Positions 31,717-41,109 of a DNA stretch of 64,000 bases are shown here, piece by piece. The DNA is from Gemmatimonadaceae bacterium. Lineage in GTDB: Bacteria; Gemmatimonadota; Gemmatimonadetes; Gemmatimonadales; Gemmatimonadaceae. The stretch spans positions 1 to 64,000 of the forward strand of contig DASUHB010000072.1 of NCBI GenBank assembly GCA_036273715.1, given 5' to 3'. Each line of letters begins with the position of its first letter. Position 1 is the stretch's first letter. The notes beneath the pieces are model-generated. The model was not told the DNA's origin, ran no database searches, and was given only the letters and a program-made list of their open reading frames with translations. The position numbers were made by a program, and so were the translations under genes.

Positions 31717-34700
31717 TCAGCGCGCCAGCGGCTCGAACTCGAACCCGCGTGGAACGCGGCGGTAGCCCGCCGCAGTGAACGCGCCCGCCCAACGGCTGAC
31801 CCCCGCGGCCGCACCGTCGATCCGTTCCACCGTGCACCGGCGCCGCGTTAAGCCAAGGGACGACCGCCGGCGGTCCACGTACTCGGCCAGCACGCGCGCC
31901 GCGGCCGTCACGTCGTCCTCCTCGGCATCCGGACGCACAACCACGCGCCGGCCCGCCGATTCCGCCGAGAGAATCACCACCCCGCCGCGCACCACGAGCA
32001 CCGCGCCGCGACCGCGCGGATGCTCCAATGGATTCGTCGCCCGAGACGGGAGCCGCACGTTCAAGATGTTGGCCGGGTCCGACGCAGCAATCGCAACCAT
32101 CGGCGCTGCCCGCCCCGTTGTTTCCTCGCGAACTCCGCGGAGCAGCTCGACCGCGGCCGGCAACGCGAACTGCGCTCCTGCCATACCCTCGACGAAGTAT
32201 CCACGACGCACTTCGCCGCGCTCCTCCAAACGCTTGAGCTCGCGATAGATCGATCGCCACGGGACGGGCGGCCGCTCTCTCCGCCACCAGTCGCTCGTGA
32301 CCACGCCGTATCGGTCGAGCCAGCGTCGCGCCACTATTTCGGCGTGCTCGTCTTCCGGCGGGCGGTCGGCATCGTCGATCCTGATCAGCGACCAGCGACC
32401 TAACCAGCCGCTCCGCGGACCGGGCACATCCGGCCGACGCCACTTGGGCAAGCGATACGCAGACACCCGGCGCTGCACGATTGGCGACCGACCGGTGATC
32501 TCGCTCGGCCACCGCGACACTTCCGCCGGCGATTCGCGGTTCGGCAGCGCTCGCATACGAACGATCTCCCGCATCGCCTCGATCGTGTCGTTCGTCGCCG
32601 CGCCCGCGGCGACCAGCTCGCGCAACCCGTCGCGAAGCGCAGCCGGTCCCAGGCCGGTCGCGGAAACCAGATCGGCGAAGAACGAGGCGCCGCGTTGGGC
32701 GAGCGCGTCGCGCACGCGTTGGGCATCAGCCGAGAGCGCCTGCGACGGCGTCGAAAGCCAGATGACTTCCTCGCCGCGCGGGAAAAAACGAATGGCCGCC
32801 AGGGTTGCAGCGCCGGCGTCGGACCGGTGTGCGCTGCCGGCCCATTCGAGCTCGCCCGACGTCGCGAGCTGCGACAGCCACGCGGAGTCGTATCGATCGA
32901 GGCGCGAGGGCAGGGTATCGCGTTCCCATCGATCTGCCGGCTGGGGCAATCCCGACAGCTGATGCACGGCGGCCTCGAGGCCCGTCGAGCCCGTTAGGCG
33001 GTCGCGAGAATCGACGTGCTGCCACCGTCGCAGAAACGCGCCGAACGTGCCGAGGTCAACGGCCCGGATCTGGCGGCGCAGCTGAGCCAGTGCGCGTCGT
33101 CGTGCGCGATCGACGACTCCCGTGGTGCACCATTCGGCATCATGCACCCCACGCCGGAAGCGACCGCGCACGAGCCGTCCCGCGCGATCCCAATCTGTCA
33201 ACGCCGCCGCCACCCATTCCTCGGGCCAGCCGTATCGCTTCGTGATGTCCGCAACCGTCACGGGACCGGCGAGCGAGACGAACTTGGCGAGAATCTCTCG
33301 ACGCGCCGCGCGCGGCTCGAGCGACGGATGCCGAAACGCGCGGGGCACAACGACGTCGGCGGCTGTGTCGGCGAGGAGCGGTCCCGCGCGAAGCCGCGCG
33401 AGCGCGTCTTCGCCGAACGCCGCGGCGTATCGCGGGAACGTTTCCACGAGGATGGCGCGCCAGCGAAGCGCCTCATCGCCGGCCGGAAACGGGATCAGGA
33501 CCACGCGACCGCTCTCGAGGAGCGCTTCGACCGGATCCCGTTGGGCCGTCCACGCGTCGCGCGCCGCGGTGCGGGCGCGCAGCTCGTCGATCGTGAGATC
33601 GCCGGCACGGTCGAGCAGGTACGCGAGCTCGTCGGCCGAGCGTGCCCGGCGCCGTTCGGATGTGCCGCGCCGATCGGCCACCACGTCGTCGAGCGCCCGT
33701 CGCGCGTCCTCGTCGGCGTCGGCGCCTAACAGACCATCCGTGAGCACGTCGCCCAACAAGGCCCGGTCCACGGACAGAAGCGCCGCCTGTCGCTCGGCGC
33801 GGGGTGAATCATCGGCGTACAGCCAGTCCATCACGAATCCGAGCTGCAGCCCGGCCGCGAACGGCGAGGGCCCGTCGGTATCGACCAGGCGGACGGTGAT
33901 GCGGCCGGCGCCGATCGCCTCCAGGACGGTGCGAAGCGACGGCAGATCGAACGCATCGTCGAGCACTTCGCGATACGTCTCGACGAGGAGCGGGAAGGTG
34001 GGCCTGCCGCGCACGGCGTCGAGCAGATCGAGTGCGCGCATGCGTTGGAGCCAGAGCGGCATGCGGCGCCCCGGCGCGCCGCGCGCCAGCACCAGCGCCC
34101 GCGCGGCGTTCATGCGGAATCGGGCGCCGAACAGCGAGGTATTGCCGATTTCGTCGACGAGCCGTTGCTCGGCATCGCCCGGGCTCAGGCGGAGCATGGC
34201 GGCGAGGTCGAGCGCGGCGCCGGTTTCGGGGACGCGGAGCATGATGCCGTCGTCGCTCGTCTGCACGTGGCACTCGCCGCTGCCTAACGCATCGCGGACG
34301 CGTTGGGCGAGCGCCATGCCCCACGGCGCGTTGACGCGGCCGCCGAACACGGAATGGATCACGATGCGGACCGCGCCCATCTCGTCGTGGAATCGCTCCA
34401 CGACCACGGTGCGCTCGTCGGGGATCGTGCCCGTGGCCGCGCGCTGCTCGGCTACGTAGTCCCGCAGCTCGCGCGTCGATGCCTCGTCGGCGCCTAACCG
34501 AGCCGCGAGCGCCGCCGCCGCGGCCTCGTCGTCCGCCGGGAGCGCCGCCAGCTCGCGGCGCAGCGCGCCCACGCGGCGGCCGATGGAGGCGGCGCGCGAC
34601 GCGTACTCCCCGTGCCAGAACGGCATCCGCGCCGGCGCCCCGGGCGCCGGCGTCACGATCACCCGATCGTGCTCGATTGCCCCGATCCGCCAGGTGGCCG

Positions 34701-36336
34701 AGCCTAACTGAAAGACGTCGCCCACCCGCGACTCGTGCACGAACTCCTCGTCCAACTCGCCTAACCGCGTCCGGTCCGGCAGCACCGCCGTGTACAGACC
34801 GCGGTCGGGGATCGTGCCGCCGGACACCACCGCCACCAGCCGGCTCGATCGCGTCCCGCGGATCTGGTCGGCGACGCGATCCCACACGAGCCGCGGCTGC
34901 ATGTCGGCCGTCACCTCCGCCGGGTACGCCCCCGACAGCATCGACAGCACGGCGTCGAACGCCGCCCGCCCGAGCTTGTGATACGGGTACGCCCGCCGCA
35001 CCAGCGCGAACGCATCACCCGTCGACCAGTCGTCCACCGACGCCATCGCCACCAGAATCTGCGCCAGCACATCGAGCGCATTCTGCGGCACCCGCGTCGG
35101 CTCCACGTCGCCCTCACGCATCGCCTCGACGATGGCCGCCATCTCGACCAGATCGTCGCGAAACGTCGGCACGAACACGCCCCGACTCGACTCGCCTAAC
35201 GAATGGCCGGCGCGTCCCACCCGCTGCAACCCGGCCGACACCCGCTTGGGACTCTGTAGCTGCAGCACCAGATCCACCGAGCCGATGTCGATGCCCAGCT
35301 CCAACGAGCTCGTCGTCACCAGCGCGCGCAGCTCGCCCGCCTTGAGCGACCGCTCCAACCCCAGGCGCCGCTCCCGCGACAACGAGCCGTGATACGGACG
35401 CGCCAGCTCCTCGCCCGCGAGTGTGTTGATCCGCGCCGCCATCCGCTCCGCCTGCCCGCGGTTGTTGACGAACACCAGCGTCGTCCGCGCCCCGCGAATG
35501 CGCGCCACCGCCAGCTCGGCGACCCGCGGCCACACACCGCCCGGCGCCATCGCCCCCTCCGGCGCCGGCGACGCGATCTCGAGCGCCATCCGCTTCACCA
35601 ACCCGCAATCGATGACCGTCACCGGCCGGAACGCCGGCGCATCGCCCTCGCCGCGCGGTCCGCAGCCGCCGAGATACCGCGCGATTTCGTCTAACGGACG
35701 CTGCGTGGCCGACAGACCGATCCGCTGCGGCGGCGACTCGCACAACGCATCGAGACGCTCGAGCGACAACGCCAGATGCGCCCCCCGCTTCGTCCCCGCC
35801 ACCGCGTGGATCTCGTCGACGATCACCGCGCGCACCATCGAGAACATCCCGCGACCCTTCACCGTCGTCAGCATGATGTGCAGCGATTCGGGCGTCGTGA
35901 TCAGGATGTGCGGCGCGCGACGCAGCATGCGGGCACGCGCACCGGCGCTCGTGTCGCCCGTCCGCACCGCGACGCGAATCTCGGGGAACGGCAGCCCCGC
36001 CTCCTCAAATCGCAGCCGCAGCTCCGTGAGCGGCACCTCGAGGTTGCGATGGATGTCGTTGCTCAGCGCCTTGAGCGGCGAGATGTAGAGGATCTGTACT
36101 GCGTTAGGCAGCGGCGCGTCGAGGCCGCGCTCGATGAGGCGGTTGATCTCCCACAGAAATGCCGACAGCGTCTTGCCCGTCCCGGTCGGCGCCAGAATCA
36201 GCGTGTGCGCCGCGCTCGCAATCGCCGGCCACCCCAACCGCTGTGGATCGCTCGCCCGTCCGAAGGCGTCGCGAAACCACTCCCGCACGATCCGGTGGAA
36301 CGGGCGCATGAGCCCAGCATCGCCGCGAGAGGCCAT
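31717..36336 (-). CDS. lhr: Lhr-family ATP-dependent helicase, full length
   Basis: The 1539-residue protein is the size of E. coli Lhr. The N-terminal superfamily 2 core has Walker A APTGTGKTLSAF, the DEIH box VIVDEIHAV, motif III GLSATQRPL, and motif VI QRVGRAGHSLG. Winged-helix and Lhr-specific domains follow, then the long C-terminal extension (beyond about residue 870) found only in full-length Lhr. Known Lhr proteins unwind DNA and RNA:DNA hybrids 3'-5' and are linked to DNA repair. The ATG at 36336 is preferred to the TTG six bases upstream. The gene carries ten or more GTTAGGC-type motifs. It is probably monocistronic. Confidence 0.95.
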   Translation of the reverse strand: MASRGDAGLMRPFHRIVREWFRDAFGRASDPQRLGWPAIASAAHTLILAPTGTGKTLSAFLWEINRLIERGLDAPLPNAVQILYISPLKALSNDIHRNLEVPLTELRLRFEEAGLPFPEIRVAVRTGDTSAGARARMLRRAPHILITTPESLHIMLTTVKGRGMFSMVRAVIVDEIHAVAGTKRGAHLALSLERLDALCESPPQRIGLSATQRPLDEIARYLGGCGPRGEGDAPAFRPVTVIDCGLVKRMALEIASPAPEGAMAPGGVWPRVAELAVARIRGARTTLVFVNNRGQAERMAARINTLAGEELARPYHGSLSRERRLGLERSLKAGELRALVTTSSLELGIDIGSVDLVLQLQSPKRVSAGLQRVGRAGHSLGESSRGVFVPTFRDDLVEMAAIVEAMREGDVEPTRVPQNALDVLAQILVAMASVDDWSTGDAFALVRRAYPYHKLGRAAFDAVLSMLSGAYPAEVTADMQPRLVWDRVADQIRGTRSSRLVAVVSGGTIPDRGLYTAVLPDRTRLGELDEEFVHESRVGDVFQLGSATWRIGAIEHDRVIVTPAPGAPARMPFWHGEYASRAASIGRRVGALRRELAALPADDEAAAAALAARLGADEASTRELRDYVAEQRAATGTIPDERTVVVERFHDEMGAVRIVIHSVFGGRVNAPWGMALAQRVRDALGSGECHVQTSDDGIMLRVPETGAALDLAAMLRLSPGDAEQRLVDEIGNTSLFGARFRMNAARALVLARGAPGRRMPLWLQRMRALDLLDAVRGRPTFPLLVETYREVLDDAFDLPSLRTVLEAIGAGRITVRLVDTDGPSPFAAGLQLGFVMDWLYADDSPRAERQAALLSVDRALLGDVLTDGLLGADADEDARRALDDVVADRRGTSERRRARSADELAYLLDRAGDLTIDELRARTAARDAWTAQRDPVEALLESGRVVLIPFPAGDEALRWRAILVETFPRYAAAFGEDALARLRAGPLLADTAADVVVPRAFRHPSLEPRAARREILAKFVSLAGPVTVADITKRYGWPEEWVAAALTDWDRAGRLVRGRFRRGVHDAEWCTTGVVDRARRRALAQLRRQIRAVDLGTFGAFLRRWQHVDSRDRLTGSTGLEAAVHQLSGLPQPADRWERDTLPSRLDRYDSAWLSQLATSGELEWAGSAHRSDAGAATLAAIRFFPRGEEVIWLSTPSQALSADAQRVRDALAQRGASFFADLVSATGLGPAALRDGLRELVAAGAATNDTIEAMREIVRMRALPNRESPAEVSRWPSEITGRSPIVQRRVSAYRLPKWRRPDVPGPRSGWLGRWSLIRIDDADRPPEDEHAEIVARRWLDRYGVVTSDWWRRERPPVPWRSIYRELKRLEERGEVRRGYFVEGMAGAQFALPAAVELLRGVREETTGRAAPMVAIAASDPANILNVRLPSRATNPLEHPRGRGAVLVVRGGVVILSAESAGRRVVVRPDAEEDDVTAAARVLAEYVDRRRSSLGLTRRRCTVERIDGAAAGVSRWAGAFTAAGYRRVPRGFEFEPLAR

Positions 36337-36414
36337 CCCCAAACCTACGCGTCACGATGGAATGCTGGGAGGAACAGCCTTGCCACATCGCGGCAACTGC
36401 CCCATGCTCTCGCA

Positions 36415-37122
36415 ATGCGCAACCGTATCGCGGTGGTGACCGGCATCGGCCGCAAAGGACAAACCGGCGAAATCATCGCACGGACCCTCGCCGAAGCCGG
36501 CATGCAAATCATCGCCGTCGCACGCCACGCCGACGAAGCCCAGGCGCGCGTCGATGACCTGCGCAGCGCCGGTCACGATGCACAGCCGTTCGCGTGCGAT
36601 CTCTCCGATGAAGCACAGGTCGCCACGCTGGCGCGCGATGTCGCGACTGCAGCCGGATCGCCGCGAGTCGATGTCCTCGTCAACATCGCCGGCGGATTCG
36701 CCATGAGCGGATCAGTCGCCGAAAGCACGCTCGCCACCTGGAAGAGCCAGGTGTCGATCAACCTCCTCACCGCGTATCTCGCCACTCGAGCATTTCTTCC
36801 GCTGCTGCGCGCGGCACGCGGGTCCATCGTCTACTTCGCGTCGGCGGCGGCGCTTCCCGGCGCCGGCGTCGCCAACATGTGGGCCTACGCCGCATCCAAG
36901 AGCAGCGTCGTCGCGCTCATGCGCGCTGTCGCCGCCGAAGAGCGTGCGAATGGCGTTCGGGCCAACGCACTCGCGCCGACCGCCATTCGCACAGACGCCA
37001 ATCTCGAGAGCATGGGCGACAAGACCCGATACGTCGAACGCGAAGACGTAGCCGCCGCCGTTGCCTGGCTCTGTTCGGACGCCTCGCGCGCCGTGAGCGG
37101 GCAAGTCATTCGACTCGGATGA
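36415..37122 (+). CDS. short-chain dehydrogenase/reductase
   Basis: The 235-residue Rossmann-fold protein has an N-terminal nucleotide-binding motif (VVTGIGRKGQTGEIIA), the NIAGG motif of the third strand, the catalytic Tyr/Lys pair in YAASKSS, and the PTAIRT segment after strand six. It is a classical SDR, probably NADP-dependent because of the Arg after the second strand (VARHADEA). The open frame extends far upstream on the same strand, but that part is antisense to lhr and is not used. The substrate is unknown. No GTTAGGC motif is present. Confidence 0.9.
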   Translation: MRNRIAVVTGIGRKGQTGEIIARTLAEAGMQIIAVARHADEAQARVDDLRSAGHDAQPFACDLSDEAQVATLARDVATAAGSPRVDVLVNIAGGFAMSGSVAESTLATWKSQVSINLLTAYLATRAFLPLLRAARGSIVYFASAAALPGAGVANMWAYAASKSSVVALMRAVAAEERANGVRANALAPTAIRTDANLESMGDKTRYVEREDVAAAVAWLCSDASRAVSGQVIRLG

Positions 37123-37179
37123 CAGGCGACTCGTCGGACTCATCTGGCCCGCGATGCCAGCTTACCCGTACCTTAGAGC

Positions 37180-38031
37180 ATGAGCCTCGCGGCGCGACGA
37201 CGAATCACGACCCGCATCATCGCGCTCGACCGTTCGCTCGAAGCGTTGCCGCTATTCCGACTCAGCGACTCGGCCGACGATACTGCTTTAGCCTATGCAC
37301 CGCCGTCGGGCGGTCGGTGGCGCGTCCTCCCGCGTCCCGGCGACAGACTGCCGGGCACGTTCGATCAGGACGTATACATCGAGCTCTGGCATCGCTATCA
37401 CGACCTGGGCGCGCCGGCCGATGGAGTCGTGCGCTTCACTCTGCACGCGTTTCTCCGATCGATCGGACGTCGCGTAGATGGTCGAACGTACGAGCAGCTG
37501 CGCTCCGCGCTCGCGCGGCTCAATCACACCACGCTCGAGTCACAGGGCGCGTACTACGACGCGACGACGCGGTCGCCGGTCGAAAGCCGCTTCAATGTGC
37601 TGAGCGCGGTATTCATCGAGCGCCGACGAGTATTGGACAGGGACCAGTTGACGCTCTTCCCTTCCATCGCTGCGGCAGAGCCCGGCGAAGCCGTGGTTAC
37701 GTTAGCCGCGAGCCTTCGCGCCAACATTGCTGCGGGACACGTCGTATCGCTCTCGGCGCCGCACTATCAGTCGCTGTCATCGCCTGTTGCTCGCCGCCTG
37801 TACCGATTGATGGAGGTGGCGCGTGAGGAGGGCAATTTGACCTGGCGTGTGGGTCTTGCAGAGCTTGCCGAGCGGATTCCGCTCGCCCAACGGTACCCAT
37901 CGCACCTGCAGCGAGTGCTCCAACCGGCCCACGAGATGCTGTTGGCTGCGGGTCTGGTCCGCGATGTCGCGGTACGCCAGCACCGACGCGAATGGTTTGT
38001 CGATTATGTTTTGTCGGCGCGGGCGACCTGA
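37180..38031 (+). CDS. plasmid-type replication initiator (RepA/RPA-like) homologue
   Basis: The 283-residue protein resembles the replication initiator protein A family of plasmids: two winged-helix-like halves, with VRFTLHAFLRSIG, YEQLRSALARLNHTTLES, then SLSAPHYQSLSSPVARRLYRLME and WRVGLAELAERIP. Such proteins bind origin iterons and recruit the helicase. Here there are no visible iterons, parA/parB or other plasmid genes nearby. It may be a relic of an integrated plasmid or a homologue turned into a DNA-binding regulator. The ATG at 37180 begins a normal N-terminus. The next gene starts 60 bases downstream. The surrounding 4.4 kb lacks the GTTAGGC motif. Confidence 0.72.
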   Translation: MSLAARRRITTRIIALDRSLEALPLFRLSDSADDTALAYAPPSGGRWRVLPRPGDRLPGTFDQDVYIELWHRYHDLGAPADGVVRFTLHAFLRSIGRRVDGRTYEQLRSALARLNHTTLESQGAYYDATTRSPVESRFNVLSAVFIERRRVLDRDQLTLFPSIAAAEPGEAVVTLAASLRANIAAGHVVSLSAPHYQSLSSPVARRLYRLMEVAREEGNLTWRVGLAELAERIPLAQRYPSHLQRVLQPAHEMLLAAGLVRDVAVRQHRREWFVDYVLSARAT

Positions 38032-38091
38032 TGCACGGCCGTGAAGGACGTCACCACTCGTTTCCATCCTGACTTCCACGGAGAGCAACAC

Positions 38092-38310
38092 ATGGCGACC
38101 AAGCTGGAGAAAACGCTCAAGCGTGAGATCGAGATCGAGGGACAAGCGTACATGGTCGCGATCTCCCCCGAAGGCGTGAAAATCACCCAGAAGGGCTTTC
38201 GCAAAGGACCGGAGCTCACGTGGAAGCAGTTGCTCACCACCGGGAACGAAGCCGGCGGAAACGGAGGGGGAGGGGGAGGGGGAGGGGGAGCGCCGTTCGG
38301 CGCGGCATGA
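38092..38310 (+). CDS. small protein with poly-glycine tail
   Basis: The 72-residue protein has a small beta-rich core (KREIEIEGQAYMVAISPEGVKIT, then KGFRKGPELTWKQLL) and a C-terminal run of nine glycines followed by APFGAA. GGAGAG lies seven bases before the ATG at 38092, which is preferred to the GTG at 38041. The glycines come from the tandem G-run repeat. The core recalls short DNA- or RNA-binding beta proteins but no family is recognised. It may be co-transcribed with the RepA-like gene upstream. A hairpin follows. Confidence 0.65.
   Translation: MATKLEKTLKREIEIEGQAYMVAISPEGVKITQKGFRKGPELTWKQLLTTGNEAGGNGGGGGGGGGAPFGAA
38266..38288 (+). repeat. GGGGGA tandem repeat, G-quadruplex-forming
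   Basis: Four runs of five G are separated by single A bases, lying inside the small poly-glycine gene. A change of one six-base unit would alter the protein by two glycines without shifting frame. The run is an ideal G-quadruplex sequence on the coding strand and mRNA. Confidence 0.85.
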
Positions 38311-38329
38311 CCGGTGCGGAACGGAGGGA

Positions 38330-38355
38330 GGGGCGCGAGGAACACTTCGCGCCCC
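38330..38355 (+). terminator. hairpin after the poly-glycine gene
   Basis: A 9-bp perfect stem GGGGCGCGA / TCGCGCCCC with an 8-base loop lies 19 bases after the stop codon and before the S41 peptidase gene. There is no T-run, but position favours termination. Confidence 0.5.
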
Positions 38356-38423
38356 TGAGTCGTATCCTTTAGAGCAGATGCGTCGGATGTCCGACGTGTC
38401 TTTCCCTCCACCGGGATGGTCCA

Positions 38424-40028
38424 ATGACTCGTCGACTCCGGGCGACCGTCGTCGCCGGCGCCCTGCTCCTCCCCGTCGCCATTGGCGGGTTCTCCATTCG
38501 GGAGCGCGCGGCGCATGACGGCGCACGCGTGTTCGACCAAGTCATGTCGCTCGTCTCGGATCGATTCGTCGACACGGTCGACGCATCCGCGCTCTACGAG
38601 AAAGCAGCACGTGGCTTGGTGACGCAGCTCCACGATCCGTACTCCGAGCTTTTCTCACCCACCGAGCTGAAACGATTCTCGACGCAGTCCACCGGCCGCT
38701 ACGGCGGCATCGGAATGCAGATCGAGAATCAAGACGGGCAAATCGTCGTCGTTCACGTGTTCTCGCACAGTCCCGCACAGTCAGCCGGTGTTCAGGACGG
38801 CGATCACATCATCGGCATTGACACCGCGTCCACGCGCGGATGGTCGTCGCAGCAAGTGTCCGACGTGTTGATCGGCACCGTGGGCACGCAAGTCAAAGTG
38901 CGCTTCTCGCGGCCCGGCGTGAGCGAGCCAATCGACTATACGTTCACGCGCGCCGAGATTCACGTCCCCGCTGTGCCTTACGCGCTGATGCTCGACGACA
39001 AGATCGCGTACATCCCGCTGCAGACGTTCAACGAAGACGCGGCCGACGAGCTCCAGAGCGCGGTCAATAATCTCGTCAAGCAAGGCGCGAAGTCGATTGT
39101 GCTCGACCTCCGCAACAACCCGGGCGGCATCCTCGATCAAGGTTTGCAGGTCGCCGATCTCTTCCTCAAGAGCGGACAACAGATCGCAAGCGTTCGCATG
39201 CGCCAGGGTCCGCCGCAGGTTTACACCGCGCACGACGACGAGCACATTCAAAACGTACCCCTCGTAGTCATGGTAGACGGTTACTCTGCGTCGGCTGCTG
39301 AGATTGTGACCGGAGCGCTCCAGGACCATGACCGCGCGCTGGTGGTCGGCACGACGTCATTCGGCAAAGGGCTTGTCCAGACTGTCTTCCCGATCGACGG
39401 CGGCTGGGCGCTCAAGCTCACCACCGGCAAGTGGTATACGCCGAGCGGCCGCTCGATCCAGAAGAACCGGAAGCCCGCAAACCCGGATGATCTCCAAGCA
39501 AACGCGAGCGAGGCTCCGCCAGACTCGCTCGAGAAGGAGTCGGTGAAGCAGAATCGCCCCGCATACCGCAGCGACGCAGGTCGCATTGTGTACGGCGGCG
39601 GCGGCATCACACCGGACGTCATCGTGGCGGACGACACGATCACGACGCCTGAGCAGACGTTCTTCAAGGCGATCGCGCCCAAGTATCCGGCGGTGCGCGG
39701 CGTCTTGTACAGCTATGCGCTGCAGCTCAAAGGGCAGGTTTCGCCGAAGTTCACGGTGAAGCCCGAATGGCGTGATGAGTTCTACCGCCGGCTTCAGGCG
39801 GCCAAGATCACGGTCGATCGCGCGCAATACGATTCTGCGGCACCGTTGATCAATCGGTGGATCGGCAATCAGGTCGCCGAGCTCGCGTTTGGCGATTCGA
39901 CTGAGTTCCGCCGCGAGATTCCGGACGACAAGCAGTTGCAGCGCGCGATGGAGCTCCTGCGCAAGGGCAGCACGCAGAAGGACCTGTTCTCTCTGGCCCA
40001 GGGAGCGAGCCCGCCAGTAAAGCAGTAA
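38424..40028 (+). CDS. S41 family C-terminal processing peptidase
   Basis: The 534-residue protein has a signal peptide or N-terminal anchor (VVAGALLLPVAIGGF), a helical region, a PDZ domain (about 88-175, starting GRYGGIGMQIE) and the S41 protease core. The catalytic Ser is in GYSASAAEIV and the Lys in TSFGKGLVQT, the Ser/Lys dyad of CtpA/Prc proteases. A long C-terminal helical extension follows. It probably acts in the periplasm on C-termini of envelope proteins. The PD40 lipoprotein gene starts 10 bases after its stop, so the two are likely an operon. Confidence 0.95.
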   Translation: MTRRLRATVVAGALLLPVAIGGFSIRERAAHDGARVFDQVMSLVSDRFVDTVDASALYEKAARGLVTQLHDPYSELFSPTELKRFSTQSTGRYGGIGMQIENQDGQIVVVHVFSHSPAQSAGVQDGDHIIGIDTASTRGWSSQQVSDVLIGTVGTQVKVRFSRPGVSEPIDYTFTRAEIHVPAVPYALMLDDKIAYIPLQTFNEDAADELQSAVNNLVKQGAKSIVLDLRNNPGGILDQGLQVADLFLKSGQQIASVRMRQGPPQVYTAHDDEHIQNVPLVVMVDGYSASAAEIVTGALQDHDRALVVGTTSFGKGLVQTVFPIDGGWALKLTTGKWYTPSGRSIQKNRKPANPDDLQANASEAPPDSLEKESVKQNRPAYRSDAGRIVYGGGGITPDVIVADDTITTPEQTFFKAIAPKYPAVRGVLYSYALQLKGQVSPKFTVKPEWRDEFYRRLQAAKITVDRAQYDSAAPLINRWIGNQVAELAFGDSTEFRREIPDDKQLQRAMELLRKGSTQKDLFSLAQGASPPVKQ

Positions 40029-40038
40029 GTTTGGGGGC

Positions 40039-41109
40039 ATGAGAGCCCCGTACAGCATCGCCGCGGCCACGCTCGTGGCCGCGGTTGCATGTGGGCACCC
40101 CGCGCCCAACGCCAACGTGGCGCCGTCAGCGCCGGTCGCGAACGAGCTGCGATTGACGGACATCCGCCAGCTCACGCATGGCGGCGCGAACGCAGAAGCG
40201 TATTTCAGCCACGACGGAAAGCAGCTGATCTTCCAGTCCACACGCGACGGGCGGAGCTGCGACCAGCAGTACATCATGAACGTCGACGGCTCCGACGTGC
40301 ACCGCGTGTCGAATGGCACCGGCAAAACAACGTGCGGGTATTTCTTCGCCTACGACAAGCGCATTTTCTTCGCGTCGACGCACGCGGCCGACACCGCCTG
40401 CCCGCCCAAGCCGGATCCGTCCAAAGGCTACGTGTGGGGCCTCGATCCGTTCGACATCTACACCGCCAACGCCGACGGCTCCAATCTCCAGCGCCTAACG
40501 AACTACGGCGTCTACACCGCCGAAGGCACGTTGTCGCCCGACGGCCGGACCATCGTGTTCACGTCGCTCAAGGATGGCGACCTGGATCTCTATGCGATGG
40601 ACGTCGACGGCACGCACGTGCGGCGTCTCACCGACACGCCGGGCTATGACGGCGGCGCGTTCTTCTCGCCCGACGGAACGAAAATCGTCTATCGCGCCAA
40701 CCACCCGACCGATTCGACCGAGCTGGCCGAATATCGGGCGCTGCTCGCCCAACGCATCGTCAGACCGAACAAGATGGAGCTCTGGGTGATGAACGCCGAT
40801 GGCTCAGATCAGCATCAAATCACCCACTTGGGCGGCGCCAATTTCGCGCCATATTTCACACCCGACGGGCGGCGGATCATCTTCTCGTCCAACTACAAGA
40901 ATCCGCACAGCGGCAATTTCGACTTGTATCTCGTCAACATCGACGGGTCGGGGCTGGAGCAAATCACCACCGATCCGGGTTTTGATGGTTTCCCGCAGTT
41001 CAGCCCGGATGGACGCTTTCTGGTGTGGGCGTCGAGCCGCAACGCGCCGGACCCGCACGAAACGAACATCTTCATCGCACGCTGGGCTGACGCGAACGCC
41101 GCCCGCTGA
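40039..41109 (+). CDS. PD40/TolB-like beta-propeller lipoprotein
   Basis: The 356-residue protein has a lipoprotein signal (AAATLVAAVACG, Cys18) and six or so WD40-like PD40 repeats seen as recurring blocks: EAYFSHDGKQLIFQST, GTLSPDGRTIVFTS, GAFFSPDGTKIVY and PYFTPDGRRIIFSS. This is the beta-propeller of TolB and related proteins. It probably sits in the periplasm or on the outer membrane as a scaffold. GGGGG precedes the ATG. The tight spacing to the S41 protease gene suggests joint function. Confidence 0.9.
   Translation: MRAPYSIAAATLVAAVACGHPAPNANVAPSAPVANELRLTDIRQLTHGGANAEAYFSHDGKQLIFQSTRDGRSCDQQYIMNVDGSDVHRVSNGTGKTTCGYFFAYDKRIFFASTHAADTACPPKPDPSKGYVWGLDPFDIYTANADGSNLQRLTNYGVYTAEGTLSPDGRTIVFTSLKDGDLDLYAMDVDGTHVRRLTDTPGYDGGAFFSPDGTKIVYRANHPTDSTELAEYRALLAQRIVRPNKMELWVMNADGSDQHQITHLGGANFAPYFTPDGRRIIFSSNYKNPHSGNFDLYLVNIDGSGLEQITTDPGFDGFPQFSPDGRFLVWASSRNAPDPHETNIFIARWADANAAR

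Follow-up and report, generated by a model that had tools for sequence, protein, structure and literature searches.

A conserved main-chromosome relative of plasmid replication initiator A proteins in the Gemmatimonadaceae

Plasmid replication initiators would ordinarily be expected on a plasmid, a chromid or a recent integrant. Among named plasmids, those nearest in our tree to the protein described here (Rep) encode the Rubrobacter initiators, annotated as TrfA or replication initiator protein A (NZ_CP007515.1, NZ_CP031116.1), which share the RPA core with Rep residues 13-264 (30.6% identity, E 9e-32). Unlike Rep, they are plasmid-borne proteins of 463-485 aa with a C-terminal DnaA_N match, have ParA nearby in three cases and are preceded by arrays of 22-23-bp iterons at all five loci inspected. 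The RPAs of Thermus pTT27 and of Deinococcus plasmids have the same PF10134 core, at about 24-31% identity, and differ from Rep in some 190 extra C-terminal residues (in those aligned), in being plasmid-borne and in the partition genes that adjoin several of them. RepE of plasmid F and Pi of R6K, both with solved structures, are iteron-plasmid initiators that have the WH1-WH2 fold of Rep at 11-12% identity. For D. radiodurans, one report describes iterons and non-canonical DnaA boxes upstream of parAB on the megaplasmid, and states that neither chromosome II nor the megaplasmid yielded an initiator when searched with known ones (PMC7671480). In contrast to the latter statement, we observed an RPA gene on the pMP1 megaplasmid (L155:123-1520, E 8.7e-15). 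RctB of Vibrio chromosome 2 is, like Rep, a plasmid-type initiator kept by its host, and its domains 2-3 match the Rep model. RctB is reported to drive a separate chromid with an iteron origin of its own (PMC6090056), whereas the Rep gene belongs to the primary chromosome and our searches revealed no iteron origin for it. The RctB-type trait of a secondary chromosome with an adjacent iteron origin is therefore absent for Rep, which shares a contig with dnaA, lacks iterons and lies away from the change in skew.

We analysed a window of 64,000 nucleotides from a member of the Gemmatimonadaceae, bacteria that live in soil and water. The window comprises bases 1-64000 of a 214,631-base contig (G000:C72). 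Its relevant features are collected in Table 1.

Table 1. Features of the window around the Rep gene.
Feature	Position	Strand	Basis or remark
1541-aa ORF	31717-36342	-	open reading frame; 'Lhr' is the label of the first-pass annotation only
SDR oxidoreductase gene	36415..37122	+	PF13561, E 2e-36; upstream neighbour in many but not all genera
Rep, RPA/RepA-type protein, 283 aa	37180..38031, stop codon included	+	PF10134 match
WH1 putative recognition helix, residues 100-116	37477..37527	+	model helix 101-116; named by analogy rather than from a DNA complex
WH2 loop and putative recognition helix, residues 237-256	37888..37947	+	model helix 240-256; assigned by analogy
Small protein, 72 aa from ATG, glycine-rich tail	38092..38310	+	frequent, not obligate, neighbour of Rep
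ECF-sigma-type promoter-like sequence GGAAC-N17-CGTA	38339..38364	+	upstream of S41; window copy placed by eye
S41 (CtpA-like) peptidase gene	38424..40028	+	PF03572, E 1.9e-50; near-constant downstream neighbour
TolB-like beta-propeller gene	40039..41109	+	PF07676, E 4.9e-40; in conserved block

A first-pass annotation of the window had likened the protein at 37180 to the replication initiator A family, and the Pfam search bears this out: PF10134, 'Replication initiator protein A', matches residues 18-232 with an E-value of 1.3e-19 (71.2 bits, cut-off 27). This is the single Pfam match of the protein, and no second PF10134 match was found elsewhere in the 4.34-Mb assembly. NCBIfam gave no match, and sequence searches returned no relatives from the PDB or from viral contigs; one PHROGs family of unknown function matched (E 2e-4), and phages yielded a single relative (25.7% identity, E 2e-5). 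The AlphaFold2 model, built from 43 family sequences, has a mean pLDDT of 88.0 and a pTM of 0.86. Foldseek matched it at E<=0.001 to 41 PDB entries, which are RctB, Pi, RepE54 or members of the same co-crystal series, three of them (8ac8 twice, 8aan) titled just 'Rep protein'. VIA-align Z scores were highest for 8ac8 (18.2), RepE54 (1rep, 17.9), Pi (2nra, 15.5) and RctB domains 2-3 (15.4), while the bottom rows listed are single winged-helix domains, those of pPS10 RepA (8.8), MSBI1.176 Rep (7.9) and two entries titled 'DNA binding protein' and 'initiator' (7.1 and 6.8). The RepE, Pi and RctB matches span residues 10-283, and Rep is accordingly modelled with the complete WH1-WH2 fold, both winged-helix domains being present. 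An unrelated winged-helix protein is ruled out, since Rep groups with initiators by both fold and tree; the grouping with unrelated winged-helix families that had been named as the outcome to watch for did not occur.

Rep lies on the main chromosome, not on a plasmid or other independent replicon. The same contig holds dnaA at 119 kb (PF08299) and ORFs recognised by eye as dnaN-, mnmG-, parA- and parB-like, which, when used as queries, have counterparts near dnaA in genomes G019, G129 and G074. Each of these three genomes is a single contig, with Rep and dnaA together on it. The chromosomal surroundings noted at first pass are thus confirmed by the presence of dnaA, and the plasmid contig that had been considered as a counter-finding did not materialise.

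The gene is also widespread within the family. PF10134 was detected in 129 of 140 sampled Gemmatimonadaceae genomes and in none of the 255 others of the phylum (395 genomes in total), a split in which 246 unlisted misses are taken as outside the family because the list is ordered by kinship. One match is present in 122 of the 129 positive genomes and two or three in the remaining seven (G026, G083, G191, G244, G252, G300 and G350), where some of the extra matches are split genes or longer RPA proteins. A search with a family profile added a 130th genome, G028, which Pfam had missed and in which only Rep residues 6-32 precede the contig end. The other ten of the 140 genomes gave no Rep with this profile, and some of them are incomplete, so that incompleteness and loss are indistinguishable. 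The profile found none in 13 sister-family genomes, a search with no positive control alongside in which the profile was the one that matches genomes of the family. GTDB genomes contain 139 relatives of Rep, and among the best 80 of these, 77 are from Gemmatimonad- taxa and one from a 'Candidatus Kuenenia' MAG. Among the titles and abstract openings listed by searches of the open-access literature, we found no description of a chromosomal Gemmatimonadaceae PF10134 gene.

Rep is a conserved, usually single-copy, slowly evolving gene of the main chromosome in most sampled Gemmatimonadaceae. Its dN/dS (NG86) of 0.038, 0.060 and 0.081 in three comparisons with close relatives indicates purifying selection; the corresponding values, from two comparisons each, are 0.053 and 0.090 for the S41 neighbour and 0.146 and 0.182 for the SDR neighbour. 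Identity across genera is mostly 59-72%, falling to 50-57% for G108 and G244. No internal stop occurs in any PF10134 match listed in the Pfam survey. The family-profile search returned one match with an internal TAA (G026) and one that is split (G108), which suggests that single copies may be damaged or misassembled. We inferred a maximum-likelihood phylogeny from 51 RPA cores (23 from chromosomes, 23 from plasmids and five from long RPAs of Gemmatimonadaceae), an analysis that the first-pass annotation had proposed, and all 23 chromosomal proteins fell beyond one branch (support 99/99) with short inner branches, forming a single clade. Next to this clade are the long RPAs of G244 contigs C5 and C6 (84/85), followed by the Rubrobacter plasmids (81/82). 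Support for the join to the Rubrobacter plasmids is modest and the tree program warned of long branches meeting, so that the sister placement of the chromosomal clade is tentative. The RPA genes on C6 and C5 (L065 and L066) encode 615 and 571 aa and lie on contigs of 95 and 209 kb, respectively. Close to the genes are iterons of 22 bp and an ORF judged by eye to be ParA-like; these contigs are probable RPA plasmids or integrated elements within the Gemmatimonadaceae.

Rep is shorter than most of the plasmid proteins with which it was compared. A search of 72,556 plasmid records gave 119 Rep relatives, most often from Deinococcus (47), Thermus (35) and Rubrobacter (6), and 23 plasmid proteins were taken for comparison. 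Eighteen of them are 439-485 aa long with the core near the N-terminus, except in Polaromonas, where the extra length is N-terminal. DnaA_N matches the C-terminal part of all five Rubrobacter proteins (E 5.8e-8 to 4.3e-4, two of the five over the curated cut-off); Pfam gave no such match in Rep of the window, and none in the three Deinococcus proteins and one Thermus protein scanned. Because domain I of DnaA contacts DnaB, the absence of DnaA_N suggests that Rep may have lost helicase recruitment. However, the short plasmid RPAs of Kozakia (260 aa) and Komagataeibacter (248 aa), found beside parAB-type genes, indicate that a short RPA can be a plasmid initiator, so that a missing C-terminus does not prove loss of initiation. 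Partition genes are common, not universal, next to RPA initiators. For Rep, the nearest parA/parB-like ORFs (by eye) are at 96-98 kb of the contig, about 58 kb away, with two parS-like sites at 95.8 kb, in agreement with the earlier remark that no partition genes surround the gene.

The absence of iterons, also remarked upon at first pass, holds in that no iteron-like array was found in 36300-40100. To compare loci, we scored the best period of 16-26 across Rep plus up to 1.5 kb on each side. A score of at least 0.80 at period 22-23 was reached by 11 of 22 plasmid loci and two of the five long RPA loci of Gemmatimonadaceae. The 120 chromosomal loci have a median of 0.58, with 112 at 0.72 or less, and the eight highest (0.72-0.88, several of them one genome counted twice) have best periods of 16, 18 or 24; as scored, none carries a 22-23-bp array like those of the plasmid controls. 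Half of the control loci (11/22) remain below 0.80, and low-scoring plasmid loci such as L155, which is cut by the end of its record, and L160 (both 0.56) indicate that the score misses some origins. In the five Rubrobacter loci the arrays lie just upstream of the gene; the Thermus HB27 locus yielded none.

Other candidate sites for Rep were sought at the locus and near the chromosomal origin. No conserved operator was seen upstream of Rep across the compared loci. Near the origin, the Rubrobacter-type iteron pattern is not enriched, giving fewer matches than shuffles in all four genomes (G000, G019, G129 and G074), and no direct-repeat clusters are common to the four. Footprinting upstream of origin-region orthologues (76 ortholog groups, of which 26 are represented in every genome, with groups in at least three genomes scored) recovered parS as the sole strong motif in all four, along with several three-genome motifs. 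Outside the window, about 14 kb from dnaA, a mostly non-coding 44-bp tandem array contains five repeats with TTTAAAGGCGGACAAG units (G000:C72:133054-133280), and a 20-bp triplet repeat lies upstream of mnmG in G074; by eye, neither is seen at the same place in the other genomes. A palindrome, TGTGAATAAGTTCACA, is located near 79.9 kb of the contig, also outside the window, upstream of a lipoprotein-like ORF, and at least 14 of its 16 bases are matched in two other genomes. It resembles a CRP-type site.

We also compared the conservation of the putative recognition helices. The 23 chromosomal proteins share a mean pairwise identity of 0.66 overall, which rises to 0.96 in residues 100-108 and to 0.98 in residues 237-246, where the two helices have their N-terminal parts; these values lie at the 95th and 99th percentile of same-length windows. 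The corresponding values for 18 plasmid RPAs, in a comparison that left out five proteobacterial plasmid RPAs and the five long RPAs of Gemmatimonadaceae, are 0.35 overall, 0.33 and 0.41, at the 45th and 74th percentile. The contrast vanishes for whole helices, which rank at the 81st percentile in chromosomal versus the 81st in plasmid proteins and at the 98th versus the 96th; helix conservation thus partly reflects folding, whole helices being relatively well conserved in plasmid proteins too. Nonetheless, the contrast in the N-terminal halves suggests one fixed chromosomal DNA target common to the Gemmatimonadaceae.

The gene neighbourhood is conserved on the downstream side. Of 120 loci, a set in which some genomes are counted twice, 119 have a co-directional S41 gene downstream of Rep; in the window, a Band_7 protein gene is also found downstream (Pfam). 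TolB adjoins S41 in 10 of 11 long loci with a chromosomal Rep and lies 6.6 kb off in the eleventh (L071). Upstream, an SDR gene stands before Rep in many genera, although several g3 and g4 genomes lack it there. The SDR and S41 neighbours named in the first-pass annotation are both supported by Pfam matches (PF13561 and PF03572). With labels assigned by eye, the gene order common to G000, G019, G129 and G074 is dnaA-dnaN ... parB-parA-mnmG ... murB ... ispG ... TolB-S41-Rep. Before S41, the pattern GGAAC-N15..18-CGTA occurs in 26 of 42 non-redundant loci, against 0.045 loci expected from mononucleotide shuffles, and this ECF-type promoter pattern suggests that S41 is probably transcribed independently of Rep.

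Two further elements had been mentioned along with Rep at first pass. The small poly-glycine ORF does begin 60 bases past the Rep stop codon, at its first ATG (38092), as had been noted; taken as an 89-aa ORF, it gave nothing over the curated cut-offs of Pfam and NCBIfam, and its best PHROGs E-value was 0.16. The suggestion that it acts together with Rep finds no support: of 119 loci, 31 have the ORF between Rep and S41, and 71 have a Rep-S41 spacer shorter than 170 nt. Homologues occur in 13 of 21 genomes searched (G000 included). These 13 include G008, which belongs to another family, G328, in which Rep was not detected, and G010 and G047, in which homologue and Rep share a contig but are more than 200 kb apart. 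An obligate pair, the conservation of which had been proposed as a check, is ruled out by this distribution. The dN/dS of the small protein, 0.42 and 0.20 in two comparisons, indicates that it is less constrained than Rep. The motif GTTAGGC is present in 243 copies on both strands of the 214-kb contig (24 in mononucleotide shuffles) and has zero copies from about 36.1 to 40.5 kb, so the region is indeed free of it; this is weak evidence, since three GTTAGGC-free gaps on the contig exceed 4 kb. Its density is 11 per 10 kb here, 11.7 in the close relative L075 and 0-3.5 in 12 other genomes or loci. As the more distant of these all have Rep, GTTAGGC is ruled out as a Rep signal.

The position of Rep relative to the chromosomal origin raises the question of a replication role. 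In a hand tally of 36 genomes with dnaA and Rep on a shared contig, the two are 53-681 kb apart (median 86 kb), within 53-295 kb in 35 and facing each other in 34, with G080 and G244 as exceptions; short distances are favoured in this tally because contigs are broken. In four single-contig genomes the distance is 76-295 kb. The cumulative GC-skew minimum lies at 95 kb in G000 (dnaA 119, Rep 37), 50 kb in G019 (dnaA 1, Rep 204), 55 kb in G129 (dnaA 1, Rep 77, hence nearer Rep) and 3680 kb in G074 (dnaA 3689, Rep 3420), so that in all four the turning point is at dnaA or between it and Rep. After strand correction, the sign of third-position skew switches at 80-100 kb in G000, at 20-60 kb in G019, near 40 kb and thus midway in G129, and over a broad interval in G074; in none of the four genomes is the switch at Rep. 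A strict search revealed no clusters of DnaA boxes. When two mismatches were tolerated, the intergenic region between dnaA and dnaN ranked with the best clusters in every one of the four genomes, a weak signal.

Two further observations concern this part of the chromosome. GC skew is near zero from dnaA to about 30 kb from Rep, over about 160 kb in G019 and 240 kb in G074, which could hint at two origins; Rep lies about 28-34 kb beyond the end of the flat interval in G000, G019 and G074. Additionally, three g7 genomes encode a second DnaA-like protein about 3 kb from Rep, convergent with TolB (L060:5794-6960, L061:4182-5267 and L062:3-1154). The L061 protein, the one scanned, has AAA+ and DnaA_C domains and no DnaA_N match.

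One explanation of this arrangement is that Rep still takes part in replication, as a regulator or auxiliary initiator at the main origin with DnaA, somewhat like RctB on the second chromosome of Vibrio. The spacing and orientation of dnaA and Rep, the skew turning between them or at dnaA, with the G129 minimum nearer Rep, the DnaA paralogue close by in three genomes of one genus and the presence of RctB among the fold matches are all consistent with such a role. Nevertheless, the skew changes at Rep in no genome examined, the gene has no iterons and the protein no DnaA_N module, ten of the 140 family genomes show no Rep (though some are incomplete), and its position may reflect just conserved gene order near the origin, with contig breaks favouring short distances. 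We therefore regard a replication role as unlikely, if worth keeping in view. In a more specific form, which we consider doubtful, Rep would bind a fixed site in the dnaA-parAB-Rep interval and help DnaA to set initiation family-wide, the DnaA paralogue having joined it in one genus.

Still less probable are two explanations that look to plasmids themselves. Chromosomal Rep might serve in plasmid interference by binding or handcuffing the iterons of related incoming plasmids, and RPA genes with 22-bp iterons and a ParA-like ORF do occur in the same family, on the G244 contigs described above. However, the recognition helices of Rep are unlike the ones in the long RPA proteins of the family, and they hardly vary, although diversity would be expected of them in an arms race with varied iterons, which makes interference quite improbable. 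The first-pass annotation had also considered a remnant of an integrated plasmid. A decaying remnant would account for the likeness to plasmid initiators and the absence of the C-terminal region of the long ones, but it is contradicted by the chromosomal contig, the family-wide distribution (129 of 140 genomes), the single clade, the low dN/dS (0.04-0.08), the retained identity across genera (lower in G108 and G244) and the lack of stops inside any match listed in the Pfam survey, and we give it almost no credence.

Taken together, our findings favour, with moderate confidence, a domesticated plasmid replication initiator acting as a sequence-specific DNA-binding regulator. Of the corresponding proposal in the first-pass annotation, domestication is upheld by the chromosomal location, family-wide occurrence, purifying selection and single clade, while the regulator part stays conditional. 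Rep would have entered the chromosome once, in or before the ancestor of the Gemmatimonadaceae, and would since have lost origin-firing and perhaps helicase-recruiting functions. As a regulator, it may have retained both winged-helix domains for binding to a single fixed DNA target shared by the family. It would most likely act on transcription, as repressor or activator, because autorepression is frequent among iteron-plasmid initiators; the chief alternative is that it serves chromosome replication or maintenance. RctB is reported to repress its own promoter (PMC6090056), and plasmid TrfA to bind and repress a host promoter (PMC12691604).

In summary, a family-wide initiator that is under strong constraint, resides on the main chromosome and has neither iterons nor the presumed helicase-contact module known from its nearest relatives on plasmids looks like the exaptation of a replication protein. 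Rep genes of this kind could mislead plasmid typing or chromid calling in this phylum. Rep provides a test case for whether such initiators become transcription factors or modulators of the host origin, and, if the origin reading were true, a plasmid initiator would have been recruited into the replication control of the primary chromosome across a whole bacterial family.
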